The notes under the pieces are model-generated. The model saw nothing but the letters and a program-made list of their open reading frames with translations, had not been told where the DNA came from and did not search any database. Positions 17,401 through 38,300 of a DNA stretch of 64,000 nt are shown piece after piece. Each line of letters begins with the position of its first letter. Positions within the stretch are counted from its first letter, which is position 1. This stretch comes from a virus. The position numbers and the translations under genes are program-made. Location: IMG/VR virus record IMGVR_UViG_3300042356_000177, positions 1 to 64,000 of that record. One strand, 5' to 3'.

Positions 17401-20400
17401 CTGTCAACTCCAAGTTCAGACGGCACCGGTTGGTTCTTTTCATCCTTAAATGCATATATCAATTCAAAGATATCCCCATAGGCTTCACTAAGATTAAAAG
17501 TCTCTTTAGCAGCTACGTTTTGTTTAGCTTGAAGTACCTTAAGTCTTTCAATGTCTTTTACTTTAGCATCATAGTATTCCTGAGCATAAACAAGCATGAT
17601 GTTTTGTTTATCCCACTCACTCATGCGTTTTTTCCATTCAGGGCCATCTCTCTTTACACCTTCTGCATCAAGTAGATTTGCAAATTCATTGTATGCTCTT
17701 TCTAAAGAACCCGGTACCTCTACAAACTCATAGTACTTTCTGTTCTTATCACGGTATTCACGGAGAAGCATAGCCTTACTTAAGTCATATCTTCCTGTAG
17801 CAGGGTCATCAAACTTAGGTGTACCATCTATATAGTTAAGCTCAAAGAGTTGTTGATATCCTTTCCAAGCAGCTTGTGCTGTAGAGTAACTCTCAAATCT
17901 TTCCATCTCATTTGAGTACTTGTCCGTCTCTGCGGCAAAGTTATCTAGTGCAGTTTGTCTATCTATCCATGCTAATCTACCTATAGGAGTATCAAAGACT
18001 TCATCAGCTTTGTATACTTCAGGTAAGAACATATCATATAGATAATCAATTGAGAGCTTTCTAAGTTCTGCTGCGCTATCTTTAATCTTATCTCTGTCAC
18101 CAGTTTCTTTGGCTTCTTCAAACTTATGTGCTAGCTCTGCTCTATCAGCACGGTAACCCTTGTGCTCATTCTGCAGTGTGTAAACCTTTACTCTTTCACC
18201 TTCACCTTTTGAGTTTACATGGAATACCTCATCTTCAAATGTAGTAAGCTCAAGTATCTGCCGCGTCTTATTAGGATTGTAACCCACAGCTTTAAGTAAT
18301 GGCTCAAGCTTTTGTCTAAATACTTCAGATGAATCCATCACTTCTTGCATGGCATTGGTCTCAATGTCATTTACAAATATTGCAAAGGCACCTACTATAG
18401 GATCATTACTAGATGTGTAAGCCTCAAGCATTCTATTGAACCAAGAAGCATCTGCTTCCGTACCAGATAGTAATCCCCGGATTCTTTCTTCAGTGATTCT
18501 GTATTTTCTAAAGTGATCAATAAAAGCACCAACTCCTTGTGCACTAAGATTCTTATCTTTAAGTGCATTTATTTCCTCATCTGTGATTGTATTACTTACA
18601 ATTCTCTCATAGAGGTCATCTATCTCAGCTTCTGATAGGCGCGCGCTAAGCTGGTCAAGATTCTGTTTAAGCTCTTTATTTACAAAGTCATTCATATACT
18701 GAGTATACTCTTTGTAGAATTCTGTAGCTCTCTCAAACTTAATCTTAGTGATTAGATTTTTAGATCTCTGAATAGTTGTATTTGTCTGACTTAACATCTG
18801 AGCAAACGGATTGTCTGTCTTCATTGCAAAGTCACGTACAAGCAAGTCATCTGTATCTTTAATCAACTCACCATAGGCAGTAACTGTACTATTAAAGACA
18901 GCCAAGAGTTTTTCACCTTGACGGGAAGTATACTCACCACTTCTAATAAGATCATTCAAACTGTCATAGATGTTATCCATAACATTGTTAATAACTGAGA
19001 AGCTATAGACAACAGTTGTTGCCTGTAAAGTGAGCTCCTGTAATCTTCTGATTTCTGCATCTACAGTATCATCAACTATCTGAGCTCTACTTCTTTTTGC
19101 AGATATCTGTACGGTCTGGAACTTTCTAACACTGGCCTGAACATCTTTAATCAAACGCTGACCTTCATTCTCAAACATGGCTTTTTCCAAGACCTTGTAC
19201 TGAGGACTCTTTTTACTTACTCTTTTAGCAACATCTAACACCTCTTTATTTCTAAAGAAGAAGTCATTGATTATTGCTATCATAGCATCAGCACTAATAT
19301 TTTTAGCAAGGTCCTTACTAGTATTATCTAACTTGTTGATACGGGCTTTCTCTGCTCTGGCAAACTGGGCTACCTCCTCATCAGTCATCTTACTAGCAAT
19401 CTCAAAGCTTTGGGTTAATACCTTTTGTGCTAATTGATCTAGTGTAGTATTAGCATTTATGTCAGCAACATCTACTCTACCAAAGATACCTTTAAGGGCC
19501 TGCTTGATTGCGTACAGTAAGTTTCTAATAAATCTAGAGAAGCCGTCTGTTTCAATCTCTTGTCTTATTTGGTTGGTTGCTCTCTTACTTAATGCATGTA
19601 CTAGCATCTCTTCTTTATACAGAACGCTTCCCTCTGGTAGTTCAGGATAGAGTCTAGCCATTTTCTCTTTAAGCATCTGACCTTCATCTGTACCCATAAG
19701 TTGGTCATACAAGTTATCAAATAGCCTAGAGTTATCTCTTCTAATTGCAGCTATGAGGGGATGGGAAAATTCATGTAGTGCTGTATCTAATGTAAGACCT
19801 CCTTCTATAAAGTACACTGTACCGGCATAATAGAATGCTGGCTCACCATTATATTTGATAGGAGAATTTTTTAGAATCCTAGAAGCTTCCTCCCGGGTGA
19901 TTTGTTGGTAAGGAGTCTTCATAGACTCAGATAATTTCTGAGCAAAGATAGTACCTAGTACAGCTGATCTTTCTATGTCCATGTCACTCTTGACACCCAT
20001 ATTCATGGGACCTTCACCATATGCATATACTAGGTCTTCATTGATGTGAGCCTGGTTATCCATAATAAGTTCCGCCCATACCATGTTGGTAAGTGGATCT
20101 AAAGCATCAGATACCAATGTTAAGCCATCCGCTTTAAGCGTTTCTCCTAGCTCAATCACAGCGTTCTTCAGTACCCCGCTTTTCTTATATTCATCAGGTA
20201 TATTTGCAAAGTTGATTACAGCATAATTACCGCTAAGACCATATGAAATGTCCCCAACTCTGATACCGTCCACCATAACTGGCACGCTCTCATTGTTCTC
20301 ACCGTAATATTCAGTCTGACTCAAATCTATATTCTCAAATACATTAAGTCCAGTAGGGTCATTAACAAACCTTCTAAAGCCCTCAATATCTTGTTCTGAA

Positions 20401-21473
20401 CCTAGTATGTGGATTTGCTCAGGTTCAAATACTAATAACTCTTTAATATTACCAAGTTGATTGTTGACACTATCATATCCAAATTTTTCATTTAAAAGAT
20501 CAGAAATGGATTTTGTAATAACAGGGAAATTGTTTGCAATATCTATATACTTTCTATTAGTGTTTCTGTTTAAAGTATCACTATCAACACCCAACATTTC
20601 TGCAACTACACTATAATAACTTGAAGGCATAAATTTTGGATCTTTTTCCTTAAGCTTCTTTACTATGTCATTATAAGTCTCTCCGTATTTTTTAAATGTT
20701 TTTTTTACGTTTACTATAACAGGTATACTATACTTTCTTGACATAGAATATCCTTGGGACTTTCTTTTAAAGTCTTTCCATGCTTCTTCCCATTGCTCTT
20801 CAGTAAAATTACGTTCTTCCCAATTAGAATAATCTGGATCAGTTAATATGTTATTTTTATCTTCAAGAAACTCTTCTCTAAGTTCTACTATACTAACATT
20901 TTTTCTAAAATAAAAGTAAAACCCATCTCCAAGAAATAAACCATCACCTTGATTAATTCTTTCTTTAAGAAATCCTTCAGATACTATATCCCCATTGTAA
21001 GCATCATGATAAACAATATCTTTTACAGTGCTTTCAGGAAAGATACTATTTAGATAAGCAGTGTATTGTTCTTGTGTACCTATGGTAACTAGTTCTGGAT
21101 TATTATCAAAGAGTTCTTTTACACCTTCTTTAGGCTCCTCTCTCATAAAAGAAGCTATGTCATCTTCATTAGAAGCTTCTCTCTTTTGCATGAGCAACTT
21201 AGTCTCCTGCTCATCAATTAACCCGTCTAATACTGAGAAGAGCAGTTCATTAGGTTCAGCTCTATATATAACATTCCCGTTTACTTTTTTGTCAGATACA
21301 CTGTATAGTAGTTCACCTGGTGTAGGTGCTAGACCATAAGTTCTTTTGGCAAACTCAGTTAGTCTAAGATTAGCATCATCAAATCTTTGGAAGTCTTGAA
21401 TTACTCTTACGTCACTAATGATGTTTTCAGCCTTAAGCATATCAAGGCTGTTCATCTTACTACTACACTCCAT
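14472..21473 (-). CDS. Giant virion protein with ART-like, HExxH peptidase-like and LysM segments (2,333 aa)
   Basis: The last gene of the virion block, and a 'polyvalent-protein'-like giant. Residues 150-365 resemble the ADP-ribosyltransferase-fold domain of phage polyvalent proteins: VYHDAYNGD, GDGFYFYF, then FEPEQIHILGSEQDIEGF. A zincin-like HEFSH is at residues 567-571. Residues 600-1,900 are mainly helical, with coiled-coil stretches. A LysM-like segment (GETLQEIADKYSMSVEDLKA) lies near residues 2,010-2,055, and one hydrophobic helix (VLLAVLGILLLFGY) lies near 2,166-2,180. Injected phage giants often carry peptidoglycan-binding and membrane segments, so delivery with the genome is plausible. 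The start at 21473 overlaps the polymerase stop (TAATG). The named segments are pattern matches; the whole protein is not assigned. Confidence 0.72.
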   Translation of the reverse strand: MECSSKMNSLDMLKAENIISDVRVIQDFQRFDDANLRLTEFAKRTYGLAPTPGELLYSVSDKKVNGNVIYRAEPNELLFSVLDGLIDEQETKLLMQKREASNEDDIASFMREEPKEGVKELFDNNPELVTIGTQEQYTAYLNSIFPESTVKDIVYHDAYNGDIVSEGFLKERINQGDGLFLGDGFYFYFRKNVSIVELREEFLEDKNNILTDPDYSNWEERNFTEEQWEEAWKDFKRKSQGYSMSRKYSIPVIVNVKKTFKKYGETYNDIVKKLKEKDPKFMPSSYYSVVAEMLGVDSDTLNRNTNRKYIDIANNFPVITKSISDLLNEKFGYDSVNNQLGNIKELLVFEPEQIHILGSEQDIEGFRRFVNDPTGLNVFENIDLSQTEYYGENNESVPVMVDGIRVGDISYGLSGNYAVINFANIPDEYKKSGVLKNAVIELGETLKADGLTLVSDALDPLTNMVWAELIMDNQAHINEDLVYAYGEGPMNMGVKSDMDIERSAVLGTIFAQKLSESMKTPYQQITREEASRILKNSPIKYNGEPAFYYAGTVYFIEGGLTLDTALHEFSHPLIAAIRRDNSRLFDNLYDQLMGTDEGQMLKEKMARLYPELPEGSVLYKEEMLVHALSKRATNQIRQEIETDGFSRFIRNLLYAIKQALKGIFGRVDVADINANTTLDQLAQKVLTQSFEIASKMTDEEVAQFARAEKARINKLDNTSKDLAKNISADAMIAIINDFFFRNKEVLDVAKRVSKKSPQYKVLEKAMFENEGQRLIKDVQASVRKFQTVQISAKRSRAQIVDDTVDAEIRRLQELTLQATTVVYSFSVINNVMDNIYDSLNDLIRSGEYTSRQGEKLLAVFNSTVTAYGELIKDTDDLLVRDFAMKTDNPFAQMLSQTNTTIQRSKNLITKIKFERATEFYKEYTQYMNDFVNKELKQNLDQLSARLSEAEIDDLYERIVSNTITDEEINALKDKNLSAQGVGAFIDHFRKYRITEERIRGLLSGTEADASWFNRMLEAYTSSNDPIVGAFAIFVNDIETNAMQEVMDSSEVFRQKLEPLLKAVGYNPNKTRQILELTTFEDEVFHVNSKGEGERVKVYTLQNEHKGYRADRAELAHKFEEAKETGDRDKIKDSAAELRKLSIDYLYDMFLPEVYKADEVFDTPIGRLAWIDRQTALDNFAAETDKYSNEMERFESYSTAQAAWKGYQQLFELNYIDGTPKFDDPATGRYDLSKAMLLREYRDKNRKYYEFVEVPGSLERAYNEFANLLDAEGVKRDGPEWKKRMSEWDKQNIMLVYAQEYYDAKVKDIERLKVLQAKQNVAAKETFNLSEAYGDIFELIYAFKDEKNQPVPSELGVDRLKMVKELQQKINDFKNSYNSKLGLTREQLDELEAYREKVETNEKLSPAETKRFVKLSDMQSGGLTATEHAEMTGIFNRLSELSSKVPTEYYMDALNHYLVKMGLPEVKSADANDFINGDQIVELLEKDKKFSNWFTANHVTKTKYEKQKGKRKAKQSTVYERLMAYSVSVPSNPEHLVITKVKDRITGKDIEFRGKPNARHSKYQVKDEFRTIPLGANWDDYVGIYVDNEYQFLPRPYDLNDPNSAVSDKYVNQEYLAMKNANSSQFKLIELLKEFHHKNQEDLPRGSKLWNDMPRFGVSGTLESIQGGKYKNNLEVLRGSIRYQLDKSILNRKLKADEYESNANFDVNQQLVTTDLQGNQLSYIPISGLYNIPINEVSPNIIDNLMRYQTSAKMQTKLIDTVDLAKGILETLEDNPLKQPNKFDKKVAKLTGKLKPAGAGKSITYNRLEQFRALFERTYHGRQVVGVEESNPWLHKLINGMTKAAGRATLAVNIPSDLKNRYGQVMQNIIESTGGEYVSLQSYFTAQPWVKKTMIEWATTGIYTKGGQSLSVQLIQRFDPFFKAKEEHGRSITRTMAKDLLDGSWMYDFRKFGEMEAAMQLFGGFMHHKYLDMKTASGVVPIRYIDAWELDENGIITLKQGIDPEWGNREITHEYIPGETLQEIADKYSMSVEDLKAKNSIREASQLQEGQELIISKAMKFKQFRNQFQAVSRRLYGAYDSFGQAEGNKYLAYRLFFFMRKWATPGFVNRFGMDTKSGNVGGYRYDWALGKPTRGYYIGALAALKKMLTYKSDAYLYMTAQEKVDLKRTIGEGVSVLLAVLGILLLFGYDDDDEARWEKIRARSGPAFTPDFQLRGYMVNHMLFLMMGVKQETSTFMPIPGLGLNEYAKFIGVTSPAFGSTLKMYVKIIDDLASMLMGNDSAYYKKDTGPYSWQQEGAPKVITHFMATFGLSGRTGDAETLIKNMEKYSSRPPQ

Positions 21474-24400
21474 TATATCTTACATTTAAAGGGATTATTC
21501 TCCTCATCAAAATTAAACTCTATTTCAGCATCACTGATACCTTGTTCTTCCGCTATCATCTCTACAACTTCTGCATACATGGTAGAACCCGGATTCACAT
21601 ATCCAAACTCCTCATAGAGTCTTTTACTTAAATATACAAATAATTCTTTAGGCATCAAGCGTACATCACCAAATCCAGTCTTAGGGAATGCTATCTTAAC
21701 ACCTCTAGACAAGTCATGTTGTATCTCCTCTATAGCATCCTCAAACAATCCTTTTACTGCAAAAAACGCCTTAGATTTTACTCCTGTAAAGTTATCATTT
21801 AATGCTAAATTAGAAGTAGGGAAAAGTATAGTCATTGACTCATCAATCTTACTCAGTCTTGATTGACCTTCAAAGATCTTTGTTTTATCTGTCATCAAAG
21901 CTCTTGGTGAGTTAGCTACAAAAACAATATCTGGATGTTTAGCAACCATCTCCTTATATTCTTCTTCTGAATCTAAATAAATATAAAGATTAGGTGTATT
22001 GGTAGCTTTTATATAGTTGCTTCTTGGCTCCTTTTTCTTCCTTGCTTCTTTTGGACGTGGGATATTCTCAAGATCATTTACAAAGAAAAGCTCTTTAAAT
22101 CTGCTCTTCTCTGAATTAAGCATGTTGTTTTGATTAATAAACAGATTAAAAAATCTATTTAGTAAAGTATCAACTTTTTCTTCATCATCAAGAATATCCA
22201 TGAACATGTCACCTTGATCTCTCATGAGGTCAGTATACAATTCTAAAGGAACTACATTATTGAAGTTCATCTTAGTTTTGTTAAGTCCAGTTTGCATCAA
22301 AGACATCAATGGCATTCTTGAGAAGAAATCACTTATTAATTTGTTTTCTTCTGGATCAGCTACTTTAACTACTCCTGGATTAGCAAGGTCAGCAAAGTTC
22401 TTATTATAAAGATTAGACAAAGAGTTGGTAAAGTCCTTCTCATTCAGATACAAGTTAAATACACTTTCTGTAGAGTTAGTATCTAGCATTAGTCTGCTAA
22501 GTACCGGATATTCTTTTTTAAGTTTTCCTCCGTACACCTCTTCATCTCTTTGCATTAACTCTTTGAATTTAACAGCATATGCATTCTCTGGATCTTTAAA
22601 CATCTTATGAGGATTGTAAGTGTTATCCAGGGCCTTCATAGCTAGTATCTTCTCATAAGCATATCTTGCTTGAGCAACTTTATCTAACTCAGGTTTAGTA
22701 ATCTTTATTCCTCTTAGCTCACTGTTAAATTCAGCAGTCTTACTAATCTCTTCTGTAGAGTAAATAGATCTCAGGTATTCTCTCTCAGCTACAAAAGCAT
22801 AATACTCTGCTATGTTAGTAGTTCCATTAGACTTAAAGTATGATGAATCTAGTGCGTATAAGCCTCTATCTTCATATGAACCCTCAAACTCAGAACCTTC
22901 TTTCCATAAACCATACTCAAAGTCTTGACGCAACTGCATCTCATCAATGTAAAGAGTGTCCTGACCTTGATCATTTTTCTTTACATAAGCACCAAACTTC
23001 AAGTTGTCTACTAGATTTACAGGAATTTTTGTGCTTGTGTTGTAACCTTTGTAAGCTGGACCTAGATTAAACTTTCTCAATGCATTCTGAAGAAGCATAC
23101 TCACTAGATCATTTCTAAAGGTTCCAATCATTTGTGCAATTTTCCCTGACCCAAAAGTATTGTCTACATTGCTTTTGAACATTTTAAGATTTGTAACAAT
23201 CCATTCAGATAAATTAGGGTGATATCTTAATGGCATCAAAGGTTGCAGCAAAGCTAGTATAAGATCATTATTATACATTGCACTAGTTACCGAGTCATAC
23301 CTTAAGGCTGTTCTTAAATCTTGGTCAATCTTAGTATCATCTTCAAGATCTTTTCTTGCAGACTCAGTTAATTCTACATCAGCACCCGTTGAATCAGTTT
23401 TTGTATCAGGGTTTGAGTTTATCTTTAATTTTGTAAGACCTTCAATCTGTTGTTCTATCTCTAGGAAGTGCAAGAACATAAGTTGAGATAATCCACTATA
23501 CTTTATTTTATTGGCAGCTGTCTGAGCCTTTTTTACTAGTTTTTCTAGTTCAGCTTCTAACGGCATTCTTCCGTTTTTGTCAAAAAATTCAGCTTCAATC
23601 TTACCCTGACGCACTTGAGAATTTTTAATAAGCTCTAACATTTCTGCCTCATTGAAGTTTCTATCTTTTTCTCCAAAGTATTTATCTGAAAGAGCACGTC
23701 TCTGAGCATAGTATTTATCACTAGTTATAGGAGTATCAAATGCTTTTTTCATTACACGGTAAGCAGCATCCTTCTTTACATTGCTTTTTGAATCAGATTT
23801 TTTACCAAGTGGTTCAGCAAATGTACTATTACCTTGTCTTTGTTCTTTTACATACTCTCTAACTAGTGGTTGTGAAACAAAGAAGATAGCTTCTTTTACA
23901 GGTACCCCAGCTTTAATTAGGTATAGCGTTGTTGAAGCAAGCTCATAGTTTCCTTGGATAAAGAAGATCCATGCATCTTTCTCAACATCCACCCATCCAT
24001 TGATAGACTGGGAGAACAAGTCAGCTACTTTGTGTACATTATCTACATCATATCTACTAGCTATTGATATTACTTCATCACCATCTTTATTAATTGTAGT
24101 GTGGTGTCTAAGGAGTAACTCCATCTTTCTTGGTGTCTTACTTTTACCCTGCAGGTATGTAGCCGGCATCTTAGCATCTAATGAATTCATGATTACATTA
24201 AATGTGTTTTCTATAGCTCCAAGACCAAGGGTTTTCTTACCAATCTCATTAGACTCATGCTTGTATATGTTGTATCCAGATTCTAGAACACGCGTAGGAC
24301 TAATGACCTTTTTAACTGTCTTTACCCCATTCTCATCTACGTTTTTGTAGTTTGGTGAATCAGAAGACATGTTCTTATAAGGGTCATACTCCATCACATA

Positions 24401-27400
24401 TTGAGCAAGCTCATCTGCAATTGGCTTTAGAATATAAGTACCGTTTGGTCTAATCAATGAAGGGTAGTTCTGTGGAAGCTCAAGAATGTTTTTGATGTCT
24501 TCTATGAGTTCATTCTCTAATGCAGCTTTCTGAGCTTTGATAATCTCAGTGTGAGACTCTTTATTCTTTCTAGCTTCAGCTACGGCATCTTTTAGAATCT
24601 GAATGCTCTCTTCTTTAGTTTTACCTTTTTTAAGTAGTCTACCTTTTACAGTACCGTCCTCAGATATGTTGGGCATAAACGTAGTCAACTTATCAATATC
24701 AAAGTCAGCTCCTGATTTAGCAACAATCTCAGATGGTGGTATAATAATATTCCCGGCTTCTGGTGGAAGGAAGTGATACACCTCCATAAATTCCATAGAG
24801 TTAAGACCCTGTACTGGAATTCTCACAGCAGCCATAGTTACTGCTTGTCTGTTAGTACCTTTATCTAACCAAGAGTCTTCTTTAATCATTTCATTGAGAC
24901 GGTCAATAGTACCAATCTCTTCTCCATCATTATGCTCTAGGTTCAACAGATAGTTAAAGTCACCTTGTAAGGCAACCATAACTTTCATAGCTGCTGTAGT
25001 ACCGTCTGTTGTTGTAGTAACTTTTGGTTTTCTACCTGCAATGACATCTTTTAGATACTGTATCTCATCTCTAAGAGCTTGTTGATGGGTAGGAGTCCAA
25101 TAAGCTGACTGTTCCTCTTGTATCCTTTCTTTAGTTTTTAAAGCTGCCTTTAGACTTTCCTTACTTGCATTTTTGTATAATGCATCAAGGTCAATAATTT
25201 TTCTATGGTATGTTGGCAGGAAGTTAGACCCTTTGTATTTTTTCTTCTGTGCTTCTGTAGCATTAGTAAGATCAGCAATAGGACTTCCAAACACTCCTTC
25301 ATACATAGCAGCAGATACCTGAACCAATGGCTCACCTTTTACTTTCTGCTTGATGATTTTCTTGTTGATTACAGATAGTAACAACTTCTCAATCTTCGGT
25401 GCTTCAGGGTGTAGTGATAAGTCATTTCTCAATGAACCATCTTCAGTTACATCTATAAAGCCTTCAATCAAGTGGTCACCCAATGTGTCATCTCTCTCAA
25501 GTTCCTGGCGAATAAGTTCAGCTAGTTTTTCTGTGCTCTTTTTATCTCTAGGTGTATAGACAAGTTTACCATCTACGGTCTTCTCATCATAACCAATCTT
25601 CTCTAGTAATTCTACTTTAAGAATATTAGTGTACTCAAAGACATTATCAATGTAGCGCTTTACTTTATCACTAGTAATCTGAGTCTCATCAGTAGACTGT
25701 ATTACACCTCTCTCATAAAGACCCTCAAGGATCAACTTACGTAACTGAGTAGAGAAGATAGACTTCTCTTTATATGTACTGTTAAGTTCTGTCTGATTCT
25801 TCAAGAACTCAGAGAATACTTTATTTACTGTAAACTTAGAGTCTTTAATTAGATCACCATTTTCATCAAAGATAGTATCACCCTTTCCGTCTGGTGCAAT
25901 GTGTCCTACTTTAGAACCTGACTGAAAGACTACATAGTCTACATTGTCCTTCATCATCTTGTCATGTAGCGCAGATAGTTTTGCTGATCCTGTTACAGAA
26001 GGAATAAGTGGGGCTAATGAGAACTTATGGAATGATGTAACAGACAAACCTTTTGTGTCTATGTTTCCAAAGTACTGTAACTTATAAGGTGGGAAGTATT
26101 CAATGATATCTTCTACTGATAGCTTATCACCGTTTACAATTCTTTTATATAGCTCTTCTTGTTCATCAGTCCAGTTACCCTCCAAAGTCTTAAGCATGCG
26201 GTAAGACTCTAGAGTAACATGTCCCTGACCATCACCTTCTTCCATGCCTAAGTATGCCTTAGCTTCAGTTTCTGAAAGCTTCTTAGCATAGTCTTTTTTG
26301 TTCTTAATAGTCTTGTTATCCTTAAGACGGGTTAAGATATCTTGATAAAGAGTTTCTTTGTACTCATCATACATGATTGAGTTAAGCGTTTTCTCTTTAA
26401 TGATAGCTGTGTGTATTCTACCATCATAGTTTCTAATGTTATACCCTTTCTTCTGAGCATAAAGTCTAGGGAAGAGTGAGCTGTTGATATAGTCTCTTGC
26501 TCTTTGGTCAGCTCTAAAACCTCTTCCTGGAGCTGTCATACCTGCATTACGCTTATGGAACTCTTCTTTCTCATGGTTATACTGAGCTAAGTCTCCGTAA
26601 GTAAGAATCACTGACTCATAGTTATGAATCCAAGAGTTGTATGTATAGGCTTTAATTAAGATTTCATCAACTTGCTTTCTTGTCAAACCTTCTTGTGTAG
26701 CAACCTCAGTCAAAGCTGGATCAACATATCTAGCTTTACTTAAAACATCTAGATTGATTTTAGTTTGCTTGTCAAAATAGTTATCTACATCATTTTTTAA
26801 AGCTTGATACAGATCATCATTTTCATCTAAAGCCTCAAGTAAATCTCCATCTATATCATAAAGCATTTCTTTAGTGTCTTCAGTAAGAACATCATCAAAT
26901 GCTGTAAATACTTCACCTGCCATTACAATAGTCCCGTCTTTCTTTCTGACTTTTCTATTGTAACCAGCCCAGTTCTTCATCTGCAATTCTGTATCTGTGA
27001 TACTATCATCTTTGAGATTAGCTTTAAATCTCTGGATTCTTTCAAGCTCACCAGCTACATAACCTTTGATAATATCAAATGCTTCTAGTTCACCCTCACC
27101 TCTACGGGCAGGACGGAAATCAGCAATGTCTACATAAAGATAGTCTGTTTCTTTTCCTGGATTATCAAAGTTAGCAGTGTCTACTTTTCTAGCTCTGATA
27201 CCTTGAGCCATAGACTTAGATGCGTGACGCATGAACTCCTGAACACCACGTAACAACATAGTATTCATTTCTTGTAGGAACTTAGTAGTTGCATCAGCAG
27301 AACTTGTAGATACACCATCTTCTGGAGTTAAGCTACCTTCTTCTAATACCTGAGTACCCGCTACGTTGATTACTTCTAGCTCATTAAATCCTTCATCACT

Positions 27401-30400
27401 TACTCTTCTTCTCTCTCCAAACTTGCTATTCATTGGATCCATATAGAAGATAGAGTTCATATTAACACTATGCTTGATATGTGGATTGTTTGAATCTCTC
27501 AACCAACGCATGTGTCTGAAGTCACCATCTACATCAAACTCTTGCTCATCTTCATCAATCAGATACTTAAAGCTTTTTGCCTTGTTTAGGGCACCCATTG
27601 TACGGGTAAGTGTACTGTCTAAGAAGTGTTCCCAAACACGGTTTCTCTCAGGACTAAGTACACTAAAGTTAGCATAGTTATCAGAGAACTTAATGTTTAT
27701 CTCAGCTAATTCTCTTAGTCTTGTTCTTACATCCTCTGCATTCTCAGCACTCTCTCTTAAGTCTTCAGGTAAACCATCCATCAAGTACTTAATAGGATTA
27801 CGGCTGAACTCTTTAGCAGCTGCTACTTTTTTAAGATCATCTGACTTAGCAGCTTTGTTGATCATCTTGAGCAAGCTGAAGATATAATCTACTCCATACA
27901 CTTTTGCAAAACCAGACTTTTCCATCATAGCGCTGATCTCAGCACTTGTTCTATCTAAGGTAATTCCAAGAGCTTCAAGAAACTCAAATGATCTTTTAAA
28001 ATCAAATTTATCACCTTTACTAAATTCAGAAATAATCAAATCAATGTCTAATATGTTTGATAACTTATCCTTGGTGATAAAATTATTAGGAGAAGGGTCA
28101 GCTAGTTGGAAGTTAGCAGACCATACTTTGAATACAGCATAAACATCAAAGTTTGCATTTACTATACTAGATGAGAACTCTGTTTTATCAGGGATACCTT
28201 CCTCTAATGAAGCTACTTGTCTTTTAGTAATGTTCAATTGTACATATGGGATTCTTGGCTTTTTAAAATCTTGCCAAAATCTTGTTGTAGTATTGAACTC
28301 AGCTGTACTTTTATAGGATTCGCTTGATAGAGGATTATGTAACATCTCCATCAGTTGGTTAAACTCTGGATAGTTTTTTGAATATTCCATCAGCTTAACA
28401 TAGATTTCCTCATCAGTGAGTGAACCGGCAAGTGTTCTTGCTAGCTTATTCCACATGATATCTTTAGACTCAAGGATATCAAAACCTAGTTTATCCTGTA
28501 CTCTAGTAAAGGTACCGTCTTTATTTTTGTCTACTTTGAAGATACTTGAGATAAGCATTAGGGTATCTTCTGAAGCTAGTTCTTTAGATGATTTAGTATT
28601 ACCTTCTGTAGATGGGATAATCTGACCTACAGAATCTATAGCAGCTTCATCTTCATCTACTTCTACATAGGTATCTTTTAATACATTAAATCTTGTGTTA
28701 TTAATATGGTAAGCAACAAGACCTTTCTTTTCTTTACCTTTTAGAGAAATATCTATGTCTCCAAAATTGTCTACCATTTTGCTTAAGAGCAAGACATTAT
28801 CAGAAAGTACAGCTTGAGTATCTAGATCTGGAGTATCACTTTGTCTATTCTCAGAAGCTAGTTCTTTGAGTTCTCTTTGAGCTATGTCTCTTTTAAGTAT
28901 TAGCCTTTCAAGTATTTTTGCATAAGTTTTTTCTCTATTTAAACCATCATTCAAAATTCTTGAAACACCAGCTGTTGTTTTAAAATACGCGTTATAGTCT
29001 AAGAAAACATCCGCCATGATACTATCCATTGCATCTACGGCTCTCTTAGAGTCATCAATGGTAAATGGACTGTAGTTTTTACTTTCAGATTTTATAACTT
29101 CAATAGCTTTAGATCTGTTGAGTACATTGAACTCAGGCATTACATTTTCTATAGCCGGAGTAAGATGGTTGATGTCACCTTTGTACAATGCATCAAAGTA
29201 TCCTTTTACTTCAGCTATGTCTCTTGGTCTAGTGAGGTCTCTCTTTGTAAGCTTACCAAATAGTAATCTTATGGCTCTTGCAATTCTATCAAAGATTCTT
29301 CCAATGATACCTTTAGGCTTAGTCTTACCAAGCATGAAGTCTCTGAAGTCTTCCGCTATTGCTTCTTCTATATCTATGAATTCTGCATTAGCCCACTTAG
29401 GAGACTTTCTCATTGCTTCATATAGTGCCGTCTTCTCATCTATACTCAAGTACAACTGAGAGAATGCATGCCATGCTTCGTGATAAAGGTCAACAGATGT
29501 ACCACCATCAGCTTGATTTAATGTAATACCTGCACGTGACCATGTTGCAAATGCATCAGAGTTTAGTATCTCAGTAATTACAGTAACAGGAATAAGCAGG
29601 TTACCCTCTTTATCTTTTGCTGTAGACAAAGGGGAATTACTCCACCAGTTGTCAGCTCTCTTTTTATCCGCTTCAGTAACAAAGTATTTATCAAAGAAAG
29701 ATGCTACACTCATTGATCTATTAAAGCCACTGAAATTAATAGCACTCTCACTTAATATTTTTCTGTCTTCCTCTGAAAGAACTTCTTTTGTTTTAGCAAC
29801 CGTTTTAGCTGCAGTTTTTGATGGAGTTGCTTTAGTCTTAAATCTAGCCTTGAACTTAGTTTCCTTTGAACGTCTATCTGGGGCAGCCTTTTTACCTTTA
29901 GCAAACTTATTTACAGGCTTAGACATTTCTTTAGTCCACCAATCTTTTGGTGCTACTACTTTAGTCTCAAGACCTAATCTAGCAGCAGCTTTTGTAGCAG
30001 CTTCTTCAATACCTGTCTGACCTGTGGTAATAACATTTGTAATTTCTAATTTAAGATTACTAGATTCTACAACAGCTTTAAGAGTATTGTACATAAAATT
30101 ATCTAGTACATCTTGAGTATAACCTTTTAGTGCAGTAATATCTCCACCTGTAATAGTAAGCACTCCGCCTGGGGATGCATTAATTTGAATTACTAGATTA
30201 TTAATAGCAGCTGGTGTTAATTCAAGCTTCCCACCACGTTTACTAAAGGTTTGAGGAAAGTATGGTTTACCAGTGCTATCTACTGCATTCTGTGTAACTG
30301 TATTAGAACCACCTGTAACATTTGCAGGATTGAATGCTAGCACTAAGTCTGCCATAGCAATTACAGCTTGCTTTACTGGAGCATATCCTGCAGTCTTGTG

Positions 30401-32380
30401 CTCTGAGAAAGTAATCTTTCCAATGTTTTCCGTTACATCTTCCTCTTCTGTTGTATCCTTTTCAGCAGTCTTTGTAATCTTACCTTTCACTGCCGGTGCT
30501 TCTTCTTCCTTCTCTTCTATCTCTATATCAGAAAGAACATCAGTTGGAATAGCATAACTCAAATAAGCATTGCGGGCTTGTATATATGGAGCAGACTCTT
30601 GAGTGTATAGAATTTTAATAAAGGGTTTAATAAAAGTAAAGTAGTCAACTTCTTTTGTTGTTATCTTATCTCCATTAATCTCATAGTCTATGAAATCTTT
30701 ATTTACATAGTCTGAAGAGTAATTTAAAGGTGCACTGAATGTATCTCTTGTTCCTTTAATCTGTTCCTTAAGAGCTTCTCTTAGTATTTCATCTGAACCT
30801 TCTTCTTCAAGATCTAGATACATACCGTTTATACTAATCTCTAAAGTTTCTATACCATCAATTATAGGAAGATTTATATAGACTGGAGTGACCTTATATC
30901 CCGCTCCTAATGTAGGATTTGGTCCTAAGAATATCTTAGCAAAGTCTCTTCTTTGTTTTGCACTTAATGTCTTACCTCCTTTAAGCTTGGCATCTGTAAA
31001 AAGTACATTCACAATCTTATCAATAAGATCTTCAGGCATGTTTGCTCTTTGCAGATATACACGGTCAGAAGGATTCCCATTCTTTAAAGTAATGTAAGTC
31101 AAACCCGCACCTTCACCCTTGATATTATCTGTATGCATTTCACCTATGTCTTCTGACTTAATTGAAGTCTCTGACATATCTATAAATTTAGCCTCAACAA
31201 TACCAAAGGTTCCTCCTGTAATAGGTAGTAGTATAGGTTCACCTGTACGGCTTAGAGTTTTTTCTCTAAGAAGATAGAGATCATTCACTTCCTTTTCTAT
31301 TCTTTCTTCTTGCCTTTTTACTATATAGTCATACTGAGATTGAGTAAATTCAATACCTTTAGCTTCAGCGTCTGCTTTGGCCCTGTCAGCAATCTCTTTA
31401 GGAGACACAAGTACTGTGGCATAATTATCTTTGTTAGTTAACAGAAGCTTTCCTGTTTTCTTATCTACAGTAACTTTTCTAAATCCTTGAAGTACTGGTC
31501 TTCCTCCTGACTCTTGGTCAGTAATATTACCCTCTTCATCAAAGTAAAGTATATTACCTTCAGTATCAGACATTACAGCATTAACACCCTCAGCATGTAA
31601 TCTTCTAAAGGGAACACCATTAATAATCTTATTCTCAGCATAGTTCTTTTGAGTAGAGTCATCAAAGTATTGGATGTCAATATCCTCACTTGGAATAGCT
31701 TGAATCATTATAGGAATACCACGGTAAAGTACTTCATCACCTTTTGATGTACCGCTTTGTACAGCAGCAACAATCTCACGGATAACTTTATAAGCCATCA
31801 CTTGAGACTCATCAATTATAGCATTTCTCTCTTCATCTGTAGCACCTTCTGGATTGATAGGAATAAACTCTTGACCAGTAAGTGTCCATGCAGATATAGG
31901 TTTTCTTCTACCAGTTGCGGCACTCCACATCAATACTTCATTAATGATCATGGCAATGTCATTAATAACCTTCATACGACCTTTAGCCATATTGGAAACC
32001 TTGATGGCAGCCTCTACATATTTCTTAGATACCTTAGCTGTTGTAAGAAATTTGGATACTGTATTGGTATCTTCAAAATCCTTAGACATCTGCATGATAT
32101 CCATATGGGACTCCTTTAATTTACGAGTCTTAAGAATATAACTTTTAACATCCTCTCTTAAAGCTACCTGTAGATAGATATCAGGAACAGCTTGTATAGT
32201 AAGTATTGTTTTCTGTACTGAATCTGGGTCAGAAGTGTCTACCATATCATCATAAAGATCTTTCATGTATGATGATATGTCAAAAGCAGGGACAGACGGG
32301 TTGTCCATTCCTACTTTTAATTCCTCATAGATATCAGTATATATATTGAGTACCTGCTTTTCAGTTATTTTACAAGCCAT
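21473..32380 (-). CDS. Virion RNA polymerase of crAss-like type, giant multidomain (3,635 aa)
   Basis: DNA-dependent RNA polymerase thought to be packaged and injected to transcribe early genes. The key evidence is SGADFDIDKL: DFDID at residues 2,559-2,563 (bases 24692-24706) is the metal-binding catalytic motif of the crAss-like virion polymerase, related to QDE-1-type two-barrel enzymes. Extra regions can be seen. Residues about 775-815 (VITTGQTGIEEAATKAAARL, then APKDWW) look like the cpYpsA/SLOG nucleotide-binding pattern. HEAWH at 967-971 is zincin-like. The end (about 3,540-3,600; IAFPKTGFGDV, then LYEEFGYVNPG) resembles a domain often found with that SLOG pattern. At 3,635 residues it is longer than the roughly 2,200-residue phi14:2 enzyme. 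It overlaps the 2,650-residue gene by 11 bases. Confidence 0.85.
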   Translation of the reverse strand: MACKITEKQVLNIYTDIYEELKVGMDNPSVPAFDISSYMKDLYDDMVDTSDPDSVQKTILTIQAVPDIYLQVALREDVKSYILKTRKLKESHMDIMQMSKDFEDTNTVSKFLTTAKVSKKYVEAAIKVSNMAKGRMKVINDIAMIINEVLMWSAATGRRKPISAWTLTGQEFIPINPEGATDEERNAIIDESQVMAYKVIREIVAAVQSGTSKGDEVLYRGIPIMIQAIPSEDIDIQYFDDSTQKNYAENKIINGVPFRRLHAEGVNAVMSDTEGNILYFDEEGNITDQESGGRPVLQGFRKVTVDKKTGKLLLTNKDNYATVLVSPKEIADRAKADAEAKGIEFTQSQYDYIVKRQEERIEKEVNDLYLLREKTLSRTGEPILLPITGGTFGIVEAKFIDMSETSIKSEDIGEMHTDNIKGEGAGLTYITLKNGNPSDRVYLQRANMPEDLIDKIVNVLFTDAKLKGGKTLSAKQRRDFAKIFLGPNPTLGAGYKVTPVYINLPIIDGIETLEISINGMYLDLEEEGSDEILREALKEQIKGTRDTFSAPLNYSSDYVNKDFIDYEINGDKITTKEVDYFTFIKPFIKILYTQESAPYIQARNAYLSYAIPTDVLSDIEIEEKEEEAPAVKGKITKTAEKDTTEEEDVTENIGKITFSEHKTAGYAPVKQAVIAMADLVLAFNPANVTGGSNTVTQNAVDSTGKPYFPQTFSKRGGKLELTPAAINNLVIQINASPGGVLTITGGDITALKGYTQDVLDNFMYNTLKAVVESSNLKLEITNVITTGQTGIEEAATKAAARLGLETKVVAPKDWWTKEMSKPVNKFAKGKKAAPDRRSKETKFKARFKTKATPSKTAAKTVAKTKEVLSEEDRKILSESAINFSGFNRSMSVASFFDKYFVTEADKKRADNWWSNSPLSTAKDKEGNLLIPVTVITEILNSDAFATWSRAGITLNQADGGTSVDLYHEAWHAFSQLYLSIDEKTALYEAMRKSPKWANAEFIDIEEAIAEDFRDFMLGKTKPKGIIGRIFDRIARAIRLLFGKLTKRDLTRPRDIAEVKGYFDALYKGDINHLTPAIENVMPEFNVLNRSKAIEVIKSESKNYSPFTIDDSKRAVDAMDSIMADVFLDYNAYFKTTAGVSRILNDGLNREKTYAKILERLILKRDIAQRELKELASENRQSDTPDLDTQAVLSDNVLLLSKMVDNFGDIDISLKGKEKKGLVAYHINNTRFNVLKDTYVEVDEDEAAIDSVGQIIPSTEGNTKSSKELASEDTLMLISSIFKVDKNKDGTFTRVQDKLGFDILESKDIMWNKLARTLAGSLTDEEIYVKLMEYSKNYPEFNQLMEMLHNPLSSESYKSTAEFNTTTRFWQDFKKPRIPYVQLNITKRQVASLEEGIPDKTEFSSSIVNANFDVYAVFKVWSANFQLADPSPNNFITKDKLSNILDIDLIISEFSKGDKFDFKRSFEFLEALGITLDRTSAEISAMMEKSGFAKVYGVDYIFSLLKMINKAAKSDDLKKVAAAKEFSRNPIKYLMDGLPEDLRESAENAEDVRTRLRELAEINIKFSDNYANFSVLSPERNRVWEHFLDSTLTRTMGALNKAKSFKYLIDEDEQEFDVDGDFRHMRWLRDSNNPHIKHSVNMNSIFYMDPMNSKFGERRRVSDEGFNELEVINVAGTQVLEEGSLTPEDGVSTSSADATTKFLQEMNTMLLRGVQEFMRHASKSMAQGIRARKVDTANFDNPGKETDYLYVDIADFRPARRGEGELEAFDIIKGYVAGELERIQRFKANLKDDSITDTELQMKNWAGYNRKVRKKDGTIVMAGEVFTAFDDVLTEDTKEMLYDIDGDLLEALDENDDLYQALKNDVDNYFDKQTKINLDVLSKARYVDPALTEVATQEGLTRKQVDEILIKAYTYNSWIHNYESVILTYGDLAQYNHEKEEFHKRNAGMTAPGRGFRADQRARDYINSSLFPRLYAQKKGYNIRNYDGRIHTAIIKEKTLNSIMYDEYKETLYQDILTRLKDNKTIKNKKDYAKKLSETEAKAYLGMEEGDGQGHVTLESYRMLKTLEGNWTDEQEELYKRIVNGDKLSVEDIIEYFPPYKLQYFGNIDTKGLSVTSFHKFSLAPLIPSVTGSAKLSALHDKMMKDNVDYVVFQSGSKVGHIAPDGKGDTIFDENGDLIKDSKFTVNKVFSEFLKNQTELNSTYKEKSIFSTQLRKLILEGLYERGVIQSTDETQITSDKVKRYIDNVFEYTNILKVELLEKIGYDEKTVDGKLVYTPRDKKSTEKLAELIRQELERDDTLGDHLIEGFIDVTEDGSLRNDLSLHPEAPKIEKLLLSVINKKIIKQKVKGEPLVQVSAAMYEGVFGSPIADLTNATEAQKKKYKGSNFLPTYHRKIIDLDALYKNASKESLKAALKTKERIQEEQSAYWTPTHQQALRDEIQYLKDVIAGRKPKVTTTTDGTTAAMKVMVALQGDFNYLLNLEHNDGEEIGTIDRLNEMIKEDSWLDKGTNRQAVTMAAVRIPVQGLNSMEFMEVYHFLPPEAGNIIIPPSEIVAKSGADFDIDKLTTFMPNISEDGTVKGRLLKKGKTKEESIQILKDAVAEARKNKESHTEIIKAQKAALENELIEDIKNILELPQNYPSLIRPNGTYILKPIADELAQYVMEYDPYKNMSSDSPNYKNVDENGVKTVKKVISPTRVLESGYNIYKHESNEIGKKTLGLGAIENTFNVIMNSLDAKMPATYLQGKSKTPRKMELLLRHHTTINKDGDEVISIASRYDVDNVHKVADLFSQSINGWVDVEKDAWIFFIQGNYELASTTLYLIKAGVPVKEAIFFVSQPLVREYVKEQRQGNSTFAEPLGKKSDSKSNVKKDAAYRVMKKAFDTPITSDKYYAQRRALSDKYFGEKDRNFNEAEMLELIKNSQVRQGKIEAEFFDKNGRMPLEAELEKLVKKAQTAANKIKYSGLSQLMFLHFLEIEQQIEGLTKLKINSNPDTKTDSTGADVELTESARKDLEDDTKIDQDLRTALRYDSVTSAMYNNDLILALLQPLMPLRYHPNLSEWIVTNLKMFKSNVDNTFGSGKIAQMIGTFRNDLVSMLLQNALRKFNLGPAYKGYNTSTKIPVNLVDNLKFGAYVKKNDQGQDTLYIDEMQLRQDFEYGLWKEGSEFEGSYEDRGLYALDSSYFKSNGTTNIAEYYAFVAEREYLRSIYSTEEISKTAEFNSELRGIKITKPELDKVAQARYAYEKILAMKALDNTYNPHKMFKDPENAYAVKFKELMQRDEEVYGGKLKKEYPVLSRLMLDTNSTESVFNLYLNEKDFTNSLSNLYNKNFADLANPGVVKVADPEENKLISDFFSRMPLMSLMQTGLNKTKMNFNNVVPLELYTDLMRDQGDMFMDILDDEEKVDTLLNRFFNLFINQNNMLNSEKSRFKELFFVNDLENIPRPKEARKKKEPRSNYIKATNTPNLYIYLDSEEEYKEMVAKHPDIVFVANSPRALMTDKTKIFEGQSRLSKIDESMTILFPTSNLALNDNFTGVKSKAFFAVKGLFEDAIEEIQHDLSRGVKIAFPKTGFGDVRLMPKELFVYLSKRLYEEFGYVNPGSTMYAEVVEMIAEEQGISDAEIEFNFDEENNPFKCKI

Positions 32381-35300
32381 CTTGAGAACCTTTTAATTTA
32401 CATTTTTTATTTTCCTCTGCCATCTGAGCTCTACGTTCTTCTCTAGTCATTTTACTAGTTTCCCCAATGGCATTATTTATCACAGTCTCATCATTAAGTA
32501 CATCAGCAATTGTTTCTGGCGTCTCTTGTGCTGACTCTTCAGTTTCATCAGTAATATCAACATCTCCTTGCTCTTCATCCATGTTTTCACTGTACATTTT
32601 GTAGTTCTTTTGTAAAGTTTTCAATGAGACTACCTTTTCCTCTTCTGAACCTAGAGGTACTATAGTGTACTCTCCTTCATTGATGTTAGTTACCTCTACT
32701 ATCTCTGTAAATTTACCTCTTTTACCTATAAGATAAGTACCCACTTCAATAGTATTTTTCTCAATTTTGGCCCCTAATTCAAGCTTACGTTTATCACGTA
32801 GTTCAGTAAGTATATTAGGATCTCCTATTGATATTAGTCCATCTTGAATTTGAGTTAAGAAATCTGCATAGATCTCATCAATTGTTTCAGCTGTAGCATT
32901 CTCAAATGCTTCTTCTATGTCTACAATACTGATGCCTTCATTCTCTTCATCTAGTATGTCATTTAACTCTTGAGTAGTCTTACCTGTTAGTCCACGTGTT
33001 ACAGCTTTCTTAAGATCATCTACATCTTTGGCTTTTCTTCCTGGTGCAGCTTTTGCTCCAGGAACTTCCCCTGGTTGTCTTCTGATAGCGTCCTGAATAA
33101 TAGATTCATCTTCATTTTCTTGTAACTCTCTTTGGAGCTCTTTGGTTTCTGCTGGCTGTTGCTTCTTGACTTTTCCATTCTGAGTGTATTCTAGGTTCTT
33201 AATATAATTTAACACAATTCCCAATTGAGCAACACCCTTTTCTATTGGTGTTGTAAGTTTTGATTCTGCTGCATATTGTATTTTCAATGTTTCAAATGCT
33301 TCTTTAGCCTTTTGAACATAAGCTGTGAATCTATCTGTGTCTTCTCTCTTCAAAGATGATGGGTCAGAGATAAGCATGTCAAACTTCTCAGGATATCCTT
33401 CATCAAGGATATCATTCATAGCTTGTAGTACTTCACCTTCTAGTAGTTTCATCTTTTCAAGATCAGCATCTTCCTCATCTTTACCTTTAGAATTGTCAAA
33501 TGTACTTGACATACTTTGTAAAGCTTGAATAAGATTCTTATCTCTTGTGTTTACATCTTTGTTAGTATCCTGCAGATCATCTCTTCTACCATTAAGAAGC
33601 TCAATCTTATTTCTAAGACCCATTGCTTTGGTTATCAATGGAGTCATTTGAATGTTTTCAGGATCTGTTTTTGCAAGCTTGTCTGCTTGTTTTTCTAACT
33701 TAGCAAGGTCTTTTTCAAGATCATTAATTTGTTTAGAAATATCAGAAAGAGCTTTATCATTAACTCTATAAGTTAAAGACTTAACTCCACCCTTAGTGTT
33801 TCTAGAAATTCTATAAGGGACACCGTTTATTAGGGCTTCTGTTTTACCTTCATTGACAAACTCAATTTCATAGATCTGACCAGCTACTACTGGGTCACCA
33901 AAGACATCACTACCCTTAACTCTAACAGTTGATACACCTCCATCATTAAGAGTCTGATCACTATTAGCATTGATAGGGTATACACTATTTTCTGTTTCAA
34001 CAGCAAAGTCACCACCTTGATGCGGGAAAGTAACTAGTGAACCAAGTATACCATTAAAGAGTACTTGCTTACCTACATTGTCTTTGAGCAATGCTGACTT
34101 AGGTTTGTACTCTACAATATCAGTAGGCTCTTGTTCTTCCTCTTCAGTCTCCCCTAAAGCGGCTAGTTCTTGTCCCCCAACAGTTATTTCTAGGTCCAAA
34201 TCTGGATAACTGACTTTTATGTCTATTCCTGATTTTCCATTTTTACCAACTTTTACTTCATATACTCTTATTTCTGTGGCTCCTTCAAGATTTTCTAAAT
34301 GATCTTGGTCAGTTATAGCATATTCTTCTATAAATTCAGCAGGTGTCATTATCCTACCTCCTTTAGTAATTCTTTTTCCATCAGGAGAAAACTCAGAATA
34401 TTTAGTAACTTTTAATTCATCTTTTTCAGTAGTTTCTCCTTTATAAGTGGTACCTCTAGCATTTGTTCCTTCAGCCCTTCTAGCTTCTATGTCTACTGCA
34501 GCATCAGTAGTTGTCTTTTTCTTTTTACTTTTCTTTGTTTTAGCTGTACCTTCACCACCTTCAGCAGGTGCCATAGTCTTAAGTGGTAGATAGTTGTTTA
34601 CTTCTTCTACTGGCTCAAGTTCAATAAGCATTGTTTCTTTATCAGCAATTGGTGGTAGCTTAAGTGACTTGATATAACCATCCTCTCCATCTAGTACTAC
34701 TTCAAATGGTAGTAGGAAGATACCTTCAGGCATCTCTCCTGACATATTGTTAAAGGCATTCCTATAGAAGGTCTGTTGAATACTATAGTCTGGTCTCTTA
34801 CTATATCTATCTTGAGAACCTTTAGCTGTATACTTATCAGTATTGAAAACAACTTCAACATCTCTTGATTCATTAGGACCATCAATTGTAACCAATCCAG
34901 TAACCACACCTCTTTTTGAAGCTCCGTAAGTTTCTTTAATAGTAATACCCTCTATTCCATCCATTCTTTCATCAGCATCCTCAAAGCTATCAAATCCTGT
35001 TTTCTTCCAGTCAATAATATCTTTGCTGATAGAGATGCCTTTACTGTCAGTTCCTTTAGCAAGTAAGTCTACCTCAGTATCTGCTTTAGGATTAAAGTTT
35101 TTCCAACGATTTGTAGTACCCGTCTTCATGTCAATGATAATAAACTTACCATCAACCTTGAATCCAAGTAAGTCCATCTCACCTACAATACCACGTTTTT
35201 TACCATCTTTAGTCACATAGTCTTTATCAAAGACAAGCATGTTCTCAGAAATGACAACCATGTTGTTATCACGTATCTGATTAGCAAAGCGGTTTAAGAT

Positions 35301-38300
35301 ATCTAATAAAGACTTGAATGCTTCAGGAGACATGTTAGCAGGTTTAGTAATTTTCTCACCCATGAAAAAATCACGTCCAAGTTTATCTACTGTTGTTCCT
35401 GCTATTGCACTACCTATATTAGCTAATTCATTTATAGCAGCTTTGATATTGGCGGTTGTAAACTCTTTACCAGTGGCTTTTTTCTTACCTTTTTGTACAG
35501 GAATAAATACTTCTCTAAGCATTTGCAACTTCTTCTCACTACCAAATCTGTCAATTGTTTTTTGCTTATAGTAGTTCTGCAGTAAGTCCGTAAGCTTAGT
35601 AACTTTTTGCTCTAGAGTTTTTTCATCACCATCTTTAATATATAAATCCAGTTCAGTAAGCAAACTATCAATTGGACTAGATTGAATTCTACCAGTTTGT
35701 TTATTTACTATAGGCTTCATTCCATTATAAAGATACTCTTCATAGTCAGGATTAATCTCTTTAAGAACTTCATAAAGCTCTTGAGTTACTCTTGCAGCAT
35801 ATTCACCATCTTCATAGTCAATACCTTCTAATCTTCTACCTATTGTATTACCTGCACTGTCTCTATAAACAGTGACTTCACCCTGACGGTCAAGTACATT
35901 TCTCTTAAGAACCTGAGCAACTCTTTCAGCTTCTGGTTTAATAGGAGTAATGGATCTTCTAAAGGCTAAGTAACCTCTGAGGTTTTTAAGGTCTTCAATT
36001 GCAAAAGCTACTTCTTTTTTTGTAAGTGTTACCTCTTTGTTTGTTTTAGGGTCAGTCCTTGTTTTCTTATTTACAAGTATTTGAAGAGCATCTACATCTA
36101 TTTGAAGTTGTTCAAATGTGGACTCAGAAAGTTCTTCTGGTGTACGCTTGTTCATTCTAAGAGTAGGAGCCTCTTCAAGAATAAACTCTACTTCTTCTTC
36201 AGCACCTATTTGAGAATTAGCATATTCTTTTACTACAGCTTGAGCTTCAGGAGTCTTTAACCAATTCTCTCTGATTTTTGCTTTAGTAGCTGCATCTTCA
36301 CCAGCATACTTTCTCTTTTTAGCATAGGTATCAAACAAAGGTTGCAGTTCATCTTGTAGTTCTTTAGGAAGACTGTCCCATGGTGTGTCTACTGTAATAG
36401 CAGGCTTAGCTGGTTGACCAGTTCTAGCATCAGTTACAGAGGTAGCTTTAGCACCTTTCTCTTTGTACTTCTCAAGAATTTCTGCAAAGATCTTTTCATA
36501 GTCTGCATTGATCTTAGCTACAATCTCTTGATACTCTATATAAACTGGTTGTTCTTTAATTACTATATCTTCTGTAGTATCTCCTTCTGGTGTAGTTTCA
36601 CCAATCTCATCCTGAATAGCTTTGATTTCTTTAGCTAATAGAGTGCTTGCTACATAACGTCCATAGTATGCAGTATAGAAATTGTTCTTTTCTTGTACAT
36701 CACCAGACTTAGTCTTCTCATCAAAGAATTCTTGTGGAGTTTCTTTATTGTATTCTTTGGCTTTTTTCTTTCCAGCTCTGTCTTTGGAAAGAGCTAGTAC
36801 GTTTATGTTGTATACTTCTAATAGCTCAAGATCTTTAAGTTCTGTTGCTATAGTTTCTAACAGATTGTCTATGTCTTCATCTGTTTTTACAGCATTGTCA
36901 TCTAAGCGTTCCTTTAAGTTAGTAAGAGTATCAAGTCTTTCTTGTAATTCAGGTGATACTTCAGGTGTAGCTTCATCCTTTTTAAGGGCCGCATATTCTG
37001 CTTCTGTATAACCAATAGCTGCTTTAAGCTTATCATCATAGTCAACCTTAGCTTTAGCTAGTTTACCAGCTTTCTCTTCTTCAGCTTTATCTAACTCTTC
37101 TTTGAGTTGTTCATCTACAGTAGCTTTGTTTCCGGCAGGTTTTCTAGATTGGATATCTGCTAGCTTCAAGAATAACTCAGCATACTGCTGATACATCACA
37201 CTTCCTTGTTTGACTACTCTCTTATTTACAACATCTTCAAACTGAGTGGGAAGGTTTGTTTTGTCTTCTATCCAGTCTGCAAACTCATTAAGGTCTACAT
37301 AGATGCCTTTATCCGCTAATGCTTGTAATAGGTCATTGTATTCTTTCTGCTCTATGGTGTTATTCACCATGTCTTTGAAATACTCAGTCTTATTGTTATA
37401 CATCTCAGTCATCCAGGAAAGATTTCTGTTGACATGTATAGCAAATTCTACAGGATCTTGAAGTACATTGATGTATTTTACCAATGCTTGATTCTCATGA
37501 TCTAACTTATGCAAGTCAATCAACTGAGTTATTGCATAGTCAATACCATCTATCTCTCCTTCTTCCTGAAGTTTATTCATGAGTTTTGTAAACTCTACAT
37601 TGGAACCAGATAGATTAAGTAAGTACTGTGTAGTTACTTCTTTTAGGTCATTAATCAAATCAGTTGCAAGTACATCAAACTCTTCTTCAAATCTTTTTAC
37701 TGACTCAACCCGAGCTTGGTCTTCAGGTAGACCACTATCCATTAGCTCTTGCTTACGCATTTGAATTCCTTGCTTTTCAATTACAGTAATCTGTACAGCG
37801 CTAAGGGCTTTTTGGAAATTAGTAAGGTCTTCAAGTTGTTGCTTCTTCTGGTTTAGTTCTTTAGATGCTTTATCTCCGCTACCCTCAAGTACTTTAATTT
37901 CACTCTGAAGCAACTCAAACTCATTTGCTAAACGTTGCTTGTCAAGCAATGGCATGATTGCAGAAGTAGGTATATTGGAGAACTGACTAATCTGTCCAAA
38001 AGTATCTGTGATAGCTGCAATTCTTTCTAGGTTTCTGTCAAATGACTCTCCCATGAATAATTGAGCATTAACACCCACTTCCCAAGCACTATGTAATAAG
38101 GCAGCTTTGTTATAGTCATCAGAGTCTTTGTCAAATAGATTAAGATCTATAGGGTTCTTTCCTAGTTTTTTATTAATATAATTGTAGCGTCTCTCCATTC
38201 TCTTGGCTCTACCTACAATAGTATCTACACGTTGAATAGCTTTTACACCTTCTCCATCTGCAAGACCAAGTGCATCTTCTACATCTTTCGGAGCCATCTG

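Follow-up and report, generated by a model that had tools for sequence, protein, structure and literature searches.

A predicted crassvirus virion RNA polymerase with a conserved zincin-like domain in the same chain

We analysed a window of 64,000 nucleotides (positions 1 to 64,000 of record IMGVR_UViG_3300042356_000177), whose source record is a 68,478-base virus contig, a fragment ending before TerL. The protein under study, P0001, is encoded on the minus strand (32380→21473) by a reading frame that starts with ATG and runs as a single frame without a break. The length of 3,635 residues and the position of the DFDID motif at residues 2559–2563, both given in the initial annotation, were confirmed; DFDID occurs once in P0001, and HEAWH at residues 967–971 is its sole HExxH. 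The genes and features of the locus are as follows.

56180..61822, minus strand: crassvirus muzzle-type virion protein of 1,880 aa, leading the cargo operon (homology)
32370..40322, minus strand: P0002, 2,650-aa upstream cargo protein, with a PD-(D/E)XK-like region that corresponds to crAss001 gp47 1564–1918
21473..32380, minus strand: P0001, predicted virion RNA polymerase of 3,635 aa, phi14:2 gp66 type (ORF and homology)
30431..32380, minus strand: N-terminal alpha/beta region, residues 1–650 (model and alignments of relatives)
29936..30418, minus strand: tentative SLOG-like Rossmann domain, residues 655–815 (weak profile and fold matches; 13 of 18 relatives)
29156..29605, minus strand: zincin-like metallopeptidase domain, residues 926–1075 (motifs and alignment)
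29468..29482, minus strand: HEAWH, residues 967–971 (motif)
29351..29368, minus strand: EExxAE (EEAIAE in P0001), residues 1005–1010, predicted third zinc ligand (alignment)
23084..28924, minus strand: counterpart of the crassvirus RNA polymerase proteins of phi14:2 (gp66) and cr108_1, residues 1153–3099 (alignment)
25526..26263, minus strand: conserved stretch with K2100 and K2119, aligned with gp66, residues 2040–2285, predicted DPBB-B (alignment)
24602..24853, minus strand: catalytic Asp triad stretch, residues 2510–2593, DPBB-A by homology (alignment)
24692..24706, minus strand: DFDID, residues 2559–2563 (aligned with gp66 D1361/D1363/D1365)
23831..24034, minus strand: bridge helix/trigger-loop stretch, residues 2783–2850 (alignment; K2801 corresponds to gp66 K1615)
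14472..21473, minus strand: P0003, downstream cargo protein of 2,333 aa, homologous to phi14:2 gp65 and crAss001 gp49; carries a LysM domain and an HEFSH of its own

The cargo block is ordered as the muzzle-type protein, further cargo proteins, P0002, P0001 and P0003, and is convergent with a replication block encoding a DnaB-like helicase, primase, DNA polymerase and exonuclease. P0001 lies after the muzzle gene and before the gp65/gp49-type gene, as in the phi14:2 layout. Residues 1677–1739 of P0002 form a PD-(D/E)XK nuclease-like stretch, weak in Pfam and also matched in the gp47-like protein of cr128_1, which is a candidate for an injected nuclease. In P0003, a LysM domain (2016–2054), a conserved HExxH of its own and a hydrophobic segment near 2160–2185 (by eye) suggest envelope or peptidoglycan contact in ejection; a LysM domain was detected neither in crAss001 gp49 nor in phi14:2 gp65. 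An ADP-ribosyltransferase suspected by eye in P0003 was not confirmed on checking. The 2,007-aa gp65/gp49-type protein of cr1_1 (L033 19630-25653) contains an ART-PolyVal Pfam domain (E 5.8e-10).

Seven of 12 related contigs contained crassvirus-type TerL and MCP. The TerL of a relative with an approximately 73%-identical polymerase, compared with 50,697 phage records, matched crassviruses and their kin only. The MCP and muzzle protein were closest to those of Leptolyngbya phage Lbo-JY46, the epsilon phage csAssE-Sib and Cellulophaga phages phi4:1/phi17:2. In a small TerL tree, three relatives formed one clade (100/100) whose placement is unsure, as long branches meet. Because this tree could not place the clade, the P0001 phage is best described, on sequence grounds, as a member of Crassvirales or a close sister, and membership of the order rests on the relatives since the record is without its own TerL. 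Crassviruses are thought to infect Bacteroidetes. Lbo-JY46 (PP438436.1; L075/L076), recorded from a cyanobacterium, has an MCP match of 30% over 99% and a muzzle nearest to that of the P0001 clade. No polymerase homologue was detected in Lbo-JY46, and the polymerase profile gave nothing convincing when searched against csAssE-Sib, phi4:1 and Lbo-JY46. A species-genome scan returned only one contaminant-like 3.5-kb contig from a Bifidobacterium breve-titled bin, which was useless as a host clue.

The initial annotation had assigned P0001 to the phi14:2-type virion RNA polymerases, and comparison with PDB 6vr4 by both sequence and profile upholds this assignment. A phmmer search of P0001 against all PDB chains gave one match up to E=10, namely, 6vr4 (phi14:2 gp66; E=1.2e-21), consisting of three collinear stretches, one of which spans DFDID; a profile built from 18 relatives matched 6vr4 at E=1.5e-30. 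The three to four collinear stretches shared by the two proteins cover DPBB-B, DFDID and the trigger loop. With 6vr4 chain numbering equal to gp66+14, DFDID of P0001 aligned with D1361/D1363/D1365 of gp66, in which GSDFDID was found at residue 1359, and K2801 aligned, in both sequence and profile alignments, with K1615, the trigger-loop lysine of gp66 (PMC8713982). Since the motif and its surroundings are kept in 26 viral-contig relatives and in all 59 non-redundant relatives, and are homologous to the solved gp66 structure, a chance occurrence of DFDID is excluded. With 6vr4 as the sole PDB sequence match up to E=10, no T7-like single-subunit polymerase domain of the N4-like kind was found, and tblastn of the P0001 core against 50,697 phage records gave matches in crassviruses only. 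Pfam and PHROGs searches of P0001 gave no useful match.

The AlphaFold model of the core (residues 1880–3050, with 18 relatives) was poor, with a mean pLDDT of 56.6 and a pTM of 0.36, and Foldseek against the PDB gave no meaningful match for this low-confidence model. The two-barrel (DPBB) fold of P0001 is therefore predicted from sequence homology to 6vr4, which extends across the conserved core. In the related contig L135 (4625-15021), the polymerase frame shifts at the P0001-equivalent residue 2286, between the predicted barrels. We rejected a polymerase split between barrels in this contig, because the two frames abut at this point with zero residues lost; the change of frame is most likely an assembly frameshift error.

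As initially annotated, P0001 is far longer than the phi14:2 enzyme: gp66 comprises 2,180 aa, a difference of ~1,450 aa, and relative to it P0001 has ~1,074 extra residues before the conserved core and ~270 extra after, consistent with the more than 1,000 extra N-terminal residues and the C-terminal extension already described. The claim that this length is exceptional did not hold. Annotated single crassvirus or crass-related ORFs at the same position encode 4,551 aa in cr1_1, 4,491 aa (as annotated) in cr4_1 and 4,419 aa in Fpv20, and the relatives of P0001 span 3,126–4,739 aa (wide-set ORFs uncut at both ends, with the frameshifted L135 excluded). Crassvirus RNA polymerases of up to about 6,000 aa have been reviewed (PMC10136315). 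Next to these sequences, 3,635 residues is an ordinary length. The Fpv20 protein (L080 14469-27728) contains GLDYDID at ~3238 and an HExxH at 4197, C-terminal of that motif; the polymerase profile gave no detection in it, and it is possibly a rearranged relative.

For residues 1–650 of P0001, no reliable homologue was found outside the clade. Residues 655–815 were predicted by AlphaFold, with good confidence, to alternate between strand and helix. The best-ranked Pfam family for the members was cpYpsA SLOG, a weak match (best E 0.004), and a viral fold search returned cpYpsA-related SLOG proteins at E 0.06–0.19; the stretch was absent from 5 of the 18 relatives. What stands of the SLOG-like pattern in the initial annotation is a tentative, weakly matched and clade-specific domain.

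The zincin-like part, also proposed earlier to lie in the same chain, was borne out by HEAWH and EEAIAE, which provide the HExxH and downstream Glu of a zincin metallopeptidase and are conserved across relatives. In each of the 66 relatives that retain an intact 5′ end, HE[ASG][WY]H followed by EExxAE was found 1,414–1,679 residues N-terminal of the Asp triad, as counted by hand from the ORF table among 80 wide-set relatives, a set that overlaps the first 26 relatives and contains near-duplicates. The domain was also aligned across crassviruses: crAss001 gp47 (HEAFH at 2157), cr128_1 (2146), cr108_1 (1525) and cr1_1 (2001). A Pfam search of P0001 gave no zincin family match. The AlphaFold model of residues 1–1190 had a mean pLDDT of 67.6, and Foldseek of this model against the PDB gave generic Rossmann-type matches only. 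This domain was not found in the main texts searched on crassviruses, and may already be described in subscription papers. The moderate confidence of the model at the zincin (pLDDT about 56–77) would suit a structural remnant rather than a peptidase, but 52 of 52 aligned relatives covering the site share both His residues, the Glu and EExxAE without change (one extra row with differing letters at 967–968 is a gap-edge row), and distant crassviruses retain them, so that we regard a remnant as rather unlikely. The probable role of the zincin is that of a peptidase at work while the phage enters or shortly afterwards.

To place the N-terminal part of P0001, we compared the protein with known systems. 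The polymerase gp66 (PDB 6VR4; Steigviridae) resembles P0001 in its collinear stretches, DFDID, trigger-loop lysine, neighbours and gene order, but does not carry a zincin in its shorter chain; gp66 begins about where the zincin ends, its residue 119 being aligned with P0001 ~1153. The closest annotated match, at about 25% identity by tblastn, is the polymerase of cr108_1 (Steigviridae, Pipoluvirus), which, as in P0001, has the zincin (HESFH) and polymerase in one chain. This polymerase appears split into 2,967 and 792 aa, and the record annotates the halves as separate hypothetical proteins. Rfam detected a group I intron at the split (RF00028, E=1.6e-20; NC_055878.1, L030 16822-17117), located inside the DxDxD catalytic codons. 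When the flanks were joined at U/.../G (locus L030, 16821/17117), KAGSDYDIDKMY was restored in frame, giving GSDYDID and a spliced chain of about 3,764 aa (length from coordinates). In contrast to P0001, cr108_1 has this intron, and the SLOG-like match was not detected. The 4,551-aa protein of cr1_1 (Suoliviridae) likewise has HEAFH (2001) and DFDVD (~3445) in a single chain, but is ~900 residues longer, with more pre-zincin sequence. In crAss001, gp47 has the nuclease-like region and zincin, gp50 is the polymerase and gp49 is the P0003 counterpart, but the zincin is encoded by a separate gene on the opposite strand.

Of these proteins, crAss001 gp47 holds both the nuclease-like region of P0002 (1564–1918) and the zincin of P0001 (2146–2233). 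A correspondence of P0001 residues ~420–1000 with gp47 1591–2100 (accuracy about 0.5) was rejected, since that gp47 stretch matches the P0002 nuclease far better. The gene boundary lies before the zincin in P0001 and after it in crAss001 and cr128_1, and there is none between zincin and polymerase in cr1_1. Because the boundary precedes the zincin in P0001, zincin and polymerase would be made as one chain. The presence of the zincin in crAss001, cr128_1, cr108_1 and cr1_1 points to an ancestral domain order with a shifted boundary and not to a new fusion; from sequence comparison, this order was likely nuclease, zincin, polymerase and gp49/gp65-type protein. The excess of P0001 over gp66 would then be explained largely by the shift of the gene boundary, plus a clade-specific N-terminal stretch.

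The initial annotation had instead suggested a fusion of the polymerase with other injected functions. On a rival reading of this kind, unrelated injected effectors (SLOG, zincin) would recently have been joined to a gp66-like polymerase in this phage group alone, forming the N-terminal third, as might be supposed from gp66 without an upstream zincin, phi14:2 g067 in which no HExxH was found, and the SLOG-like stretch in only 13 of 18 relatives. However, the zincin is found ahead of the polymerase in cr108_1 and cr1_1 and as the last part of gp47 in crAss001 and of its cr128_1 counterpart, and therefore predates the P0001 group; the domain is conserved among crassviruses, and other members carry it either in the polymerase chain or as the C-terminal part of the cargo protein upstream. 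A recent fusion is thus improbable, being largely refuted for the zincin, with the SLOG-like part alone fitting.

Taken together, the best explanation, to which we assign a probability of about 0.88, is that P0001 is a packaged two-barrel polymerase of an uncultured crAss-like phage, with a zincin-bearing N-terminus in one chain. Crassvirus polymerases are packaged with gp45–gp50 cargo and ejected partly unfolded (PMC10172136), and virion polymerases fused to large proteins are known in crAss-like and N4-related phages (PMC10770324). P0001 would be stored in the capsid alongside the giant cargo proteins P0002 and P0003, be ejected through the tail partly unfolded, refold in the host and transcribe early phage genes without the host polymerase. 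D2559/D2561/D2563 would bind the catalytic Mg2+, with K2801 as the predicted trigger-loop lysine. The first ~1,100 residues would correspond to that portion of the ancestral crassvirus order which holds the zincin, and the zincin may process giant cargo chains or attack a host protein. Within the predicted DPBB-B stretch, K2100 and K2119 do not vary across the 18-sequence alignment. An inactive homologue retained as a structural or ejection protein, a role in which giant cargo proteins often serve (PMC10172136), is highly improbable, as the Asp triad is invariant in 59 of 59 diverse non-redundant relatives and K2801 is retained in 57, despite divergence down to about 31–35% identity. This conservation of the catalytic Asp triad and trigger-loop lysine argues for P0001 being probably an active enzyme.

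A polymerase that carries a zincin is also known from N4, whose ejected gp50 (~3,500 aa) has an HExxH zincin in its chain (PMC12633501, PMC5512222). Its polymerase is an unrelated single-subunit enzyme, however, and the zincin follows the polymerase, so that the resemblance is one of working only. Among injected polyvalent proteins no domain is commoner than the zincin, whose presumed role is the processing of multidomain chains (PMC5512222), and N4-like polymerases invariably come fused to one (PMC5512222; N4 gp50 structure, PMC12633501). The zincin of P0001 may have the same class of role. We tentatively propose, as a doubtful possibility, that the zincin travelling with crassvirus polymerases processes the injected giant chains in the host and frees the active polymerase, N4-like phages having independently come to act alike.

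P0001 belongs, by sequence, to an enzyme family already known and appears as a real virion RNA polymerase of the crassvirus kind, whose chain also holds a conserved zincin. With it, the phi14:2-type polymerase now reaches into a large uncultured clade (197 viral-contig matches). The zincin-like domain accompanies the polymerase across crassvirus families, either in the same chain or at the end of a neighbouring cargo protein, so that what a protease-like domain does in delivering the polymerase can be tested directly. If the proposed processing is true, crassviruses and N4-like phages, whose polymerases are unrelated, would have arrived at the same solution independently.
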